Shown: piece after piece, positions 40,824 to 44,015 of the stretch | Position numbering within the stretch: the stretch's first letter is position 1 | How the letters are laid out: every line of letters begins with the position of its first letter | Assembly: GCF_022227765.1 (NCBI RefSeq) | Contig: NZ_JAJMLZ010000007.1 | Location: forward strand, 1 to 64,000 | Source: Ectothiorhodospira shaposhnikovii | GTDB taxonomy: Bacteria > Pseudomonadota > Gammaproteobacteria > Ectothiorhodospirales > Ectothiorhodospiraceae | Length of the DNA: 64,000 bases | Direction of reading: 5' to 3' | Program-made: the position numbers and the translations under genes | The notes under the pieces: model-generated | Databases searched by the model: none | What the model was told of the DNA's origin: nothing | What the model saw: the letters and a program-made list of their open reading frames with translations, nothing else

Positions 40824-40961
40824 TTAGTAGAAGGGTCTCCACAGGAACACCAGGAAGTGAGCAGCAGCAGCAATCACCATGAACACGGTGAAGGTGGTCT
40901 TGAACTGCTCGTGGAATTCCTTGGCTTGCTCTTCGCTCAGGCCGGAGATGCTGTCATTCAT
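40824..40961 (-). CDS. pucB: Light-harvesting complex 2 beta subunit, first pair
   Basis: 45 residues, too short for most gene callers. Single-helix antenna polypeptide: N-terminal SGLSEEQAKEFHEQFKTTF, then a membrane helix containing AAAAHFL, whose His is the axial ligand of a bacteriochlorophyll, then WRPFY at the C-terminus. The GLTEEEA...HDQFKTTF pattern is that of the Phaeospirillum molischianum LH2 beta chain, as I recall it. It follows its alpha partner by 17 bp, so this pair is in alpha-beta order, the reverse of the usual puc order. Confidence 0.92.
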   Translation of the reverse strand: MNDSISGLSEEQAKEFHEQFKTTFTVFMVIAAAAHFLVFLWRPFY

Positions 40962-40978: not shown

Positions 40979-41179
40979 TTACTCAGAAGCTTCAACAGCG
41001 CTGGCGTCGAAGGTCAGCGGGTTGTAGTTGTCATTGGCATACACGAAAGCGTGCACAGCCAGAGCCACGACGAGAACAGCCATCAGGATCGGCATCAGCC
41101 AGGTGCCGGGATTGACCACCAGCCACAGCTTCCAATCGTCTTTGGGATTGCTCGGCTTGCTCGGTCTGTATTCACTCAT
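40979..41179 (-). CDS. pucA: Light-harvesting complex 2 alpha subunit, first pair
   Basis: 66 residues. N-terminal cytoplasmic PSNPKDDWKLWLVVNPGTW resembles the molischianum-type LH2 alpha chain (SNPKDD...IWLVINPSTW, from memory). One membrane helix follows with the ligand His in ALAVHAFVYA, then a polar C-terminus. A ribosome site GAGGG lies 8 bases ahead. The membrane core is identical to that of the second alpha at 41867-42073, while the N- and C-terminal ends differ. The inner-membrane antenna passes energy to LH1 and the reaction centre, neither of which is encoded here. Confidence 0.93.
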   Translation of the reverse strand: MSEYRPSKPSNPKDDWKLWLVVNPGTWLMPILMAVLVVALAVHAFVYANDNYNPLTFDASAVEASE

Positions 41180-41414
41180 TGATATTGCCCTCTTGGTTTA
41201 TAACCTTGGCCATCATGGATGACCAGGATGTTTGCAACCACCGCTTATTCTAACGGTTAAGGTTGTCTCAAAGTGCTCTTGAATCACCCAGTCTCCATGT
41301 CCTTTTCTTTACTTTTCTCAAGACACTTCGACTGAAGTCTCCCTGATCGGGTTTTATATTCTGCCTTGCTGACCGAAGAAGAGTAAGCACCTTCGGATAC
41401 CGCTGCGGCATGGT

Positions 41415-41446
41415 TGTAAGTCTACGTTGACAGACATAAATGTCAA
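41415..41446 (-). promoter_or_regulatory. Promoter of the first LH2 pair with CrtJ/PpsR-type site
   Basis: Minus strand TTGACA (41441-41446), 16 bases, TAGACT (41419-41424). The palindrome TGT-N12-ACA (41415-41432) covers the -10. This is the sequence class bound by the redox-sensing repressor CrtJ/PpsR. The same arrangement occurs at 42411-42442. Confidence 0.75.
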
Positions 41447-41798
41447 GGCGACCCACCACACCCCGACAGCCTTCGAAAAGCCCTAAAAAAACCACCATTA
41501 CCCTTTTAAAAACATGAAGTTAAAAAATCCGCACTCAAACGCCGGCATGCACCGACAATGCGATCGACGGACCTTTTACTGACGCAGATCAGTTTCTCAA
41601 AAAGGCGTCTTAAAGGGCGTCAGAACAGTTTCAAGCTCACGAATCCCACACATCAAAAGGCGCAAGAAAATGCCCTTACAAGCCCCTGAAAACCTCTGTC
41701 AGGCCTGCTGAGCATTGATAAAGGGGGCTATACCAGGTCAATCATGAGATGCATCCCACGGAGCCTGGTTGCTTTAGCTTTTAAAAGCGATATGACAG

Positions 41799-41834
41799 AA
41801 AAAAAACGGCCGGCGAATACTCGCCGGCCGTTTC
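41799..41834 (-). terminator. Rho-independent terminator of the second LH2 pair
   Basis: AAACGGCCGGCGA and TCGCCGGCCGTTT form a 13-bp perfect stem around a 4-base loop. On the minus strand it is followed by a run of T (eight A on plus, 41799-41806). It lies 32 bp past the alpha stop codon and separates the two antenna units. Confidence 0.93.
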
Positions 41835-41866
41835 TACAATCACACTGAAAAGCCGTGGTCGGCTTA

Positions 41867-42073
41867 TCAGGCAACTTCCTCAGCCTGCACAGTGGTCACG
41901 TCGCTGCGCAGCGGGTTGTAGTTGTCATTGGCATACACGAAGGCGTGCACAGCCAGGGCAACCACCAGAACAGCCATCAGGATCGGCATCAGCCAGGTGC
42001 CGGGGTTAACCACCAGCCACAGCTTCCAATCGTCGGAGGGGTTGCTCGGCCGCTTTGCTCTGTATTCGCTCAT
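41867..42073 (-). CDS. pucA: Light-harvesting complex 2 alpha subunit, second pair
   Basis: 68 residues from the ATG at 42071-42073 (AGGGTG about 8 bases upstream). A longer open frame exists but the shared MSEYR start fixes it. The membrane core WKLWLVVNPGTWLMPILMA with the ligand His in AVHAFVYANDNYNP is the same as the first alpha. The N-terminus has AKRPSNPSDD and the C-terminus SDVTTVQAEEVA. It follows its beta partner by 76 bp, i.e. canonical beta-alpha order. Confidence 0.93.
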   Translation of the reverse strand: MSEYRAKRPSNPSDDWKLWLVVNPGTWLMPILMAVLVVALAVHAFVYANDNYNPLRSDVTTVQAEEVA

Positions 42074-42149
42074 TGAAATCACCCTGTCAATTTTTTCGAA
42101 CTGAAACTCAGTCAAAGCCACACGGAATCACCGTGCGGTGTTACCGTTC

Positions 42150-42299
42150 TTAGTAGAACGGTCTCCACACGTAGACGAGGAAGTGGGCAGCAGCGGCAAG
42201 CGCCATGAACACGGTGAAGGTGGTCTTGAACTGCTCGTGGAATTCCTTGGCCTGCTCTTCGGTAAGACCGGAAATGCTCTGCACGTATTCGTCGGACAT
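42150..42299 (-). CDS. pucB: Light-harvesting complex 2 beta subunit, second pair
   Basis: 49 residues. SDEYVQSISGLTEEQAKEF leads into HEQFKTTFTVFMALAAAAHF with the bacteriochlorophyll-ligand His, ending LVYVWRPFY. It differs from the first beta mainly at the N-terminus (four extra residues) and at a few helix positions. First gene of its unit, about 110 bases after the inferred transcription start. Confidence 0.92.
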   Translation of the reverse strand: MSDEYVQSISGLTEEQAKEFHEQFKTTFTVFMALAAAAHFLVYVWRPFY

Positions 42300-42410
42300 T
42301 CAAAGACCCTCCATAGGGTTTGCTGTGACTACTCGAATTCATCGACTCCAGCAGCGGTATTCGCTTCGTAGCCCTGAATTCGGGCTTCAATCCCCTGCCT
42401 TGAGTCTGGT

Positions 42411-42442
42411 TGTAAGTCTACGCTGACACATTTCCATGTCAA
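42411..42442 (-). promoter_or_regulatory. Promoter of the second LH2 pair with CrtJ/PpsR-type site
   Basis: Minus strand TTGACA (42437-42442), 16 bases, TAGACT (42415-42420). TGT-N12-ACA (42411-42428) overlaps the -10. It matches the element of the first pair in 17 of 18 palindrome bases and in spacing. Confidence 0.78.
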
Positions 42443-42482
42443 CGGGGGAGAACAGAGTTTCGGAGCAAATGCGACGCTGCCG

Positions 42483-42569: not shown

Positions 42570-44015
42570 TCAGACAGTCGGGAAATCGGTCATACCGAAC
42601 TTACCCTGTGGACCGGTGGCAGGCGGCTCTTCCTTGGCACGCAGCAGAGGAATCATCACCACCAGCACGGCCAGCAGCAAGGCGATCTCCAGATAGTAGA
42701 CCGCCAGGTATCCGGTGGCCGGCGCCGCCAGGGTCTCTCCCAGCCAGCCGTTGCCCGTGATCCAGCCGACCAGATCGCGAATGGCCCCTCCCAGGAAGAT
42801 GGCGCCACCGGCGGCGGTGGCCTGCACCGCCCCCCAGGCACCCACCGCCATGCCGCTTTGCTCATTGCGGGCAAACCCCATCATGGCCAGCAGGGTGGAG
42901 ACTGCAAACAACCCGCCGCCAAAGCCGATCAGGAAGGCACCGACACGGAACACAATGGTGGAGTCCATCGGTACGGCGATCACGACCACGATGAAGGCCA
43001 GAACGCCGACTGCGGCCCCCACGGTGGCAATCCTGTAGCAATTGGCGCCGCGGGTCAGCAACCTTGCCGCCAGTGCAAACGCGATCAGCATGCCGGTGGC
43101 CCATGTGGCAGTCAGAGTGGTGGTGGCCGCCACCGACATGCCCAGGATCTCGCCGCCGTAGGGTTCCAGCAGGATGTCCTGCATGTTGAACCCGGCGGTT
43201 CCCAGGGCGATCACCACCAGCAGGCGGCGAATATGCCCGATGCCGCTGAAGGATCGCCAAGCCTCCATGAAGGGAACACCGGGCTCATGCCTGGCCTTGG
43301 CCCGCTGCTGATTGATGGCCTCCTGCTTCCACAGGGCCGCCAGGTTCAGCAGGATGGTCAGCACGGCCACGCCCTGCAGCACTTCGATCAGACGCCCCGG
43401 CGTGTAATCGGTCAACAGGAAACCGAAGACGGAGGACGCCAGCACCATGCCCAGCAGCAGCACCACGTACAGCAATGCCACGACACGGGGACGCTGCTCG
43501 GGAGCCGCCAGGTCCGTGGCCAGGGCCAGACCGGCGGTCTGGGTCATATGCATGCCCGCCCCCACCAGCAGGAAGGCGATGGCGGCCGACAGCGGCCCCA
43601 GGAAGGCCGGTCCGCTGCCGTCCGCCAGTACCAGCAGGGCAAAGGGCATGATGGCCAGGCCGCTGAACTGCAACAGTGTCCCCATCCACAGATAGGGCAC
43701 CCGCCGCCAGCCGAAAGCGGAGCGGTGATTGTCTGATCGATGCCCCATCAGCGCCCGCAAGGGCGCGAACAACAGGGGCAACGACACCATCAAGGCCACG
43801 ATCCAGGCAGAGACCCCCTGCTCCACCACCATGACCCGGTTCAGGGTCCCGGTGAGCAGCACCATGGACATGGCCACGGCCACCTGGAACAGGGCCAGAC
43901 GTAACAGCCGCGGCAGCGGCAACTCCTTGGTGGCCGCATCGGCAAACGGCAGGATCTTGGTGCCGAACCGACCGAGCAGCCCCATGAAAGCACCGGATAC
44001 ACCCTTGCTCATCAC
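42570..44015 (-). CDS. Antenna assembly transporter, PucC/LhaA (BCH2) family
   Basis: 481 residues, about 12 membrane helices, major facilitator fold. Family features are LNRVMVVEQGVSAWIVALMV, LPLLFAPLRALMGHRSDNHR, AFGWRRVPYLWMGTLLQFSG, MHMTQTAGLALATDLA, and NMQDILLEPYGGEILGMSV. Members are needed for assembly of LH1 (LhaA) or LH2 (PucC), perhaps by delivering bacteriochlorophyll. Which complex it serves is inferred from its place beside LH2 genes. It lies 43 bp downstream of bchL and probably shares its transcript. Confidence 0.92.
   Translation of the reverse strand: MMSKGVSGAFMGLLGRFGTKILPFADAATKELPLPRLLRLALFQVAVAMSMVLLTGTLNRVMVVEQGVSAWIVALMVSLPLLFAPLRALMGHRSDNHRSAFGWRRVPYLWMGTLLQFSGLAIMPFALLVLADGSGPAFLGPLSAAIAFLLVGAGMHMTQTAGLALATDLAAPEQRPRVVALLYVVLLLGMVLASSVFGFLLTDYTPGRLIEVLQGVAVLTILLNLAALWKQEAINQQRAKARHEPGVPFMEAWRSFSGIGHIRRLLVVIALGTAGFNMQDILLEPYGGEILGMSVAATTTLTATWATGMLIAFALAARLLTRGANCYRIATVGAAVGVLAFIVVVIAVPMDSTIVFRVGAFLIGFGGGLFAVSTLLAMMGFARNEQSGMAVGAWGAVQATAAGGAIFLGGAIRDLVGWITGNGWLGETLAAPATGYLAVYYLEIALLLAVLVVMIPLLRAKEEPPATGPQGKFGMTDFPTV

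Follow-up and report, generated by a model that had tools for sequence, protein, structure and literature searches.

CrtJ/PpsR represses bacterial photosynthesis in response to oxygen and light. At the bchC promoter of R. capsulatus, CrtJ palindromes of the form TGT-N12-ACA lie over the -35 and over the -10, 8 bp apart, and have been footprinted at -47 to -30 and -21 to -4 (PMC5362033); in the same species the two puc sites are separated by 240 bp (PMC4452267). Rubrivivax gelatinosus carries tandem PpsR sites over the -35 and -10 of pucB, before its LH2 genes, with a spacing of 9 bp, and deletion of ppsR raises pucB about 190-fold in air, whereas no redox-dependent binding was seen at crtI, where the spacing is 8 bp (PMC4452267). 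In the gammaproteobacterium Congregibacter litoralis, tandem PpsR sites 7-8 nt apart overlap sigma-70-type promoters; these were mapped in the photosynthesis gene cluster and not in an LH2 multigene family (PMC2654016).

The window analysed here, a stretch of 64,000 nucleotides from the 3.34-Mb genome of Ectothiorhodospira shaposhnikovii (G000, with contigs designated C3, C5, C22, C35 and C36), contains two LH2 units, both on the minus strand. Unit 1 consists of an alpha gene (40979..41179, 66 aa) followed by a beta gene (40824..40961, 45 aa), and unit 2 of a beta gene (42150..42299, 49 aa) followed by an alpha gene (41867..42073), so the gene coordinates bear out the opposite internal order claimed in the original prediction. 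Directly upstream of unit 2 lies a transporter-family gene (42570..44015, minus strand), putatively pucC, for which NCBIfam yields a match to the MFS superfamily only; congeners likewise have a homologue of it next to their LH2 locus. An intrinsic terminator between units 2 and 1 (41835..41802, minus strand, with a 15-bp stem and a U tail; -27.3 kcal/mol, z -6.9) suggests that the two are probably separate transcription units.

The encoded chains are LH2-like, their closest solved relatives being the B800-850 alpha and beta chains of 8z4v, and the units do not stand beside the reaction-centre genes, which are located on C22 with an LH1 pair of their own. Judged by sequence, units 1 and 2 are LH2 (puc) antenna genes, nearer to LH2 than to LH1 polypeptides. 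NCBIfam equivalog models label the chains in 40979-42299 as LH1 (pufA_517/pufB_517); after comparison with solved structures this label was rejected as a naming artefact. The genome also holds two LH1-type beta-alpha pairs (C3:89045-89369 and C22:35623-35947) that are 83% identical over 440 bp, the C3 pair being a solitary copy, since reaction-centre genes are found at C22 only.

Each LH2 unit is preceded on the minus strand by TTGACA-N16-TAGACT (41446..41419 in unit 1, 42442..42415 in unit 2), with a TGT-N12-ACA palindrome over the -10. All promoter elements originally described are present, as is the single-base difference between the lower 18-mers of the two units (TGTCAACG/TGTCAGCG). The lower operators, TGTCAACGTAGACTTACA in unit 1 (41415..41432, minus strand, including the -10 hexamer TAGACT at 41424..41419) and TGTCAGCGTAGACTTACA in unit 2 (42411..42428, minus strand, with TAGACT at 42420..42415), agree with the consensus at 6/6 positions in both cases. 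That description was correct but incomplete, as it overlooked an upper operator over each -35: in both units the -35 hexamer forms the right end of a second TGT-N12-ACA located 8 bp upstream of the lower one. The upper site of unit 2, TGTTCTCCCCCGTTGACA (42437..42454, minus strand, including TTGACA at 42442..42437), is perfect (6/6), and that of unit 1, TGGTGGGTCGCCTTGACA (41441..41458, minus strand, including the -35 hexamer at 41446..41441), matches at 5/6 positions, with TGG in place of TGT. In relatives the corresponding position of the unit 1 upper site reads TGG in G002, TGT in G003 and AGT in G008. The full tandem is thus TGGTGGGTCGCCTTGACA-TTTATGTC-TGTCAACGTAGACTTACA in unit 1 and TGTTCTCCCCCGTTGACA-TGGAAATG-TGTCAGCGTAGACTTACA in unit 2, and the operator spacing is 8 bp in both units as well as in the copies on C5 and C35 and at bchC. 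By analogy with R. capsulatus bchC, transcription is predicted to start at an A in each unit (41411 in unit 1 and 42407 in unit 2, minus strand); among the 123 GTDB matches listed, 92 have a purine at the equivalent position.

Taken singly, the parts of this arrangement are weak against chance: the window has 6 occurrences of TGT-N12-ACA alone where 8.3 are expected, and 2 of the hexamer pair, at up to two mismatches, where 1.3 are expected. Their combination is strong: the 32-bp core, allowing up to three mismatches, has five copies in 3.34 Mb, and its reversed-pattern control has none. A genome-wide search for this module had been proposed with the original prediction, and it recovers copies outside the window, at C5:28846 and C35:58941, each before an LH2 alpha-beta pair, and at C22:30059, before bchC. 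Pfam LHC identifies four LH2 pairs and two LH1 pairs in the genome; the module precedes 4/4 LH2 pairs, and none of the five core copies lies at either LH1 pair. The single-site pattern gave 17 matches in all, including weaker sites with two or three mismatches, compared with 30 for its reversed control.

The same core marks the same genes far more widely. Across GTDB genomes it has at least 123 matches; among the 123 listed, 62 lie before bchC and 57 before LH2 genes (119 in total), and two of the remaining four are at a contig end. The search pattern made no demand on the TGT of the upper palindrome, and TGT nevertheless stands at offset -12 in 103 of the 123 listed matches, against 0-22 at other offsets, which argues strongly for the module being a tandem operator. 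Within a family sample of 47 genomes, 11 with reaction-centre genes and 36 non-phototrophs, ppsR occurs in 9 of the 11 phototrophs, all nine of which carry at least four modules, and the module is absent from 36/36 non-phototrophs; as the relatives are closely related species, these counts do not represent independent events. In the phototrophic congener G007 (2.0 Mb, one contig) neither a PpsR match nor a tandem module was found, its bchC and LH2 promoters included, a double absence that fits PpsR as the reader of the sites. The phototroph G046 provides a counter-example, having one tandem-like site (two mismatches) before LH2 genes and no TIGR02040 match. LH2 alpha-beta units lacking the tandem also exist in G005 and G006 (L214, L217), where TTGACA-N16-TACACT lies further upstream, perhaps as a promoter outside CrtJ control.

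Compared with the described systems, the bchC of this genome carries a module like that of R. capsulatus, and the difference lies in the presence of the module before the LH2 genes as well. In the latter respect the locus resembles Rubrivivax pucB, with 8 bp in place of 9 bp between the sites, and it shares with Congregibacter, another gammaproteobacterium, tandem sites built over sigma-70-type promoters. Identification of TGT-N12-ACA as the CrtJ/PpsR operator, as originally proposed, is well supported by this bchC-like geometry, by the recurrence before bchC and LH2 genes across GTDB and by the association with ppsR in the family, all directly observed, and the sites are best read as operators of the CrtJ/PpsR type. 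Very probably, each LH2 unit is driven by a sigma-70-type promoter set within tandem CrtJ/PpsR operators arranged as at bchC, which would allow cooperative repression. The 16-bp promoter spacer would be fixed by the operator spacing, the palindromes over the -35 and the -10 being separated by 8 bp. If the behaviour known from R. capsulatus and Rubrivivax applies, CrtJ/PpsR would bind cooperatively at both palindromes and exclude RNA polymerase, keeping LH2 and bchC off, and an AerR-type B12 partner encoded beside ppsR would relieve repression in the light without oxygen. The 8-bp spacing need not imply a redox switch here, as redox-dependent binding in Rubrivivax goes with the 9-bp and not the 8-bp spacing.

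The control element thus appears real, conserved and of an already understood kind; the unexpected part is the repressor gene. A ppsR/crtJ homologue, on which the original prediction depended, does exist (TIGR02040, 495 bits). It is the sole PpsR above the TIGR02040 cut-off (C22:81471-82851) and is preceded by an AerR-like B12-binding gene, but it is split over two frames, the first covering profile positions 1-47 and the second 34-442, so that the shift falls after about position 47 of 442. This split results from an exact tandem duplication of 55 bp at C22:81558-81669 (positions 1558-1669 of locus L051; 57 bp identical with a period of 55), which is absent from all eight congeners aligned. 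Seven of these eight have ppsR in one full-length frame, and in G005 the gene is split over two contigs. With its repressor gene frameshifted in this assembly, the strain may have lost the switch in part or altogether, and the expectation of repression by oxygen or light, originally drawn from the position of the site over the -10, is consequently doubtful here.

It is therefore worth weighing how far the operators are in use. It is conceivable, and a serious though lesser possibility, that they are genuine CrtJ/PpsR operators facing an inactive repressor, LH2 and bchC being expressed without CrtJ control. This would follow from the frameshifting duplication, which none of the eight congeners compared has, the intact frames of seven congeners and the lack of a second PpsR above the cut-off in the genome, together with the finding that in R. 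sphaeroides PpsR the N-domain comprises residues 6-120 and constructs without it fail to bind DNA (PMC3949515). The operators, however, show no decay, and translation could begin at an ATG inside the second copy of the repeat, giving a shortened protein that retains both PAS domains and the HTH. The duplication may also be an assembly error, the identity of its two copies implying that it is either recent or false; if it is genuine, the operators of this strain may go largely unread. This alternative qualifies the reading of cooperative CrtJ/PpsR repression at tandem operators and does not exclude it. It is tempting to speculate, although we regard this as rather unlikely, that CrtJ/PpsR control was lost recently through a duplication that can revert by loss of one copy, leaving five intact tandem operators behind. 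If true, antenna synthesis would have a naturally occurring on/off state, which would offer a ready test of what the operators do without their repressor present. No direct report of a natural ppsR frameshift emerged from the literature searched.

Two further readings would dispense with PpsR. The tandem-like site of G046 and a 252-aa protein with PAS and Fis-type HTH domains at C36:247185 might suggest that the sites are read by some other regulator sharing the recognition sequence, but that protein matches PpsR weakly (E 1.5e-4), and the presence of modules in 9/9 ppsR-bearing genomes along with the double absence in G007 makes such a reader very improbable. The notion of plain sigma-70 promoters with a fortuitous palindrome draws on the chance-level frequency of the single palindrome in the window, and it deserves hardly any credence in view of the tandem arrangement, the restriction to LH2 and bchC genome-wide and the conservation across many Pseudomonadota; positional conservation already refutes it. 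CrtJ/PpsR thus remains the preferred reader of the sites.

The near-identity of the two promoters had originally suggested that the module may have been either copied or kept while the genes were rearranged, and these two options fare differently. Copying is not needed to account for the shared core, because the non-homologous bchC has it too and because the two units have leaders unrelated to each other (z 0.2). That one promoter was recently copied from the other, with or without its genes, is accordingly an improbable explanation, even though the match between the units takes in the core and a few bases after it (ACAACCA): the modules match by position between species and not within the genome, and, together with the unrelated leaders and the core at bchC, this makes the likeness mostly a matter of operator constraint. 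Modules of the unit 1 and unit 2 types are each conserved in G000, G002, G003 and G008, so that the pair is older than these species. An old duplication is plausible, since only in these four genomes does unit 2 stand between pucC and unit 1, and since its leader is similar to the one in front of the pucC-adjacent alpha-beta unit of G001, G004 and G009 (z 4.7-7.7, for three related genomes picked after looking). A single alpha-beta unit follows pucC in those three as well as in G005, G006 and G007. In a tree of concatenated LH2 proteins unit 2 is nested as a clade among the alpha-beta units of the genus (support 88/79), the outgroup units being beta-alpha. The second option therefore retains some support, and it is possible that the promoter was kept while the genes below it changed order. 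Among the loci read, alpha before beta is the rule in LH2 units of Ectothiorhodospira, the beta-alpha unit 2 being confined to the four genomes named above.

A well-studied form of regulation is thereby extended to Ectothiorhodospira and its LH2 multigene family, whose four units appear to be set jointly, along with bchC, by a single operator module. The occurrence of differing alpha-beta orders under the same control module offers a tractable case of operon rearrangement. The genus moreover provides its own contrasts, from species with an intact ppsR and modules, through G007 with neither, to the present genome, in which the modules stand beside a broken ppsR.
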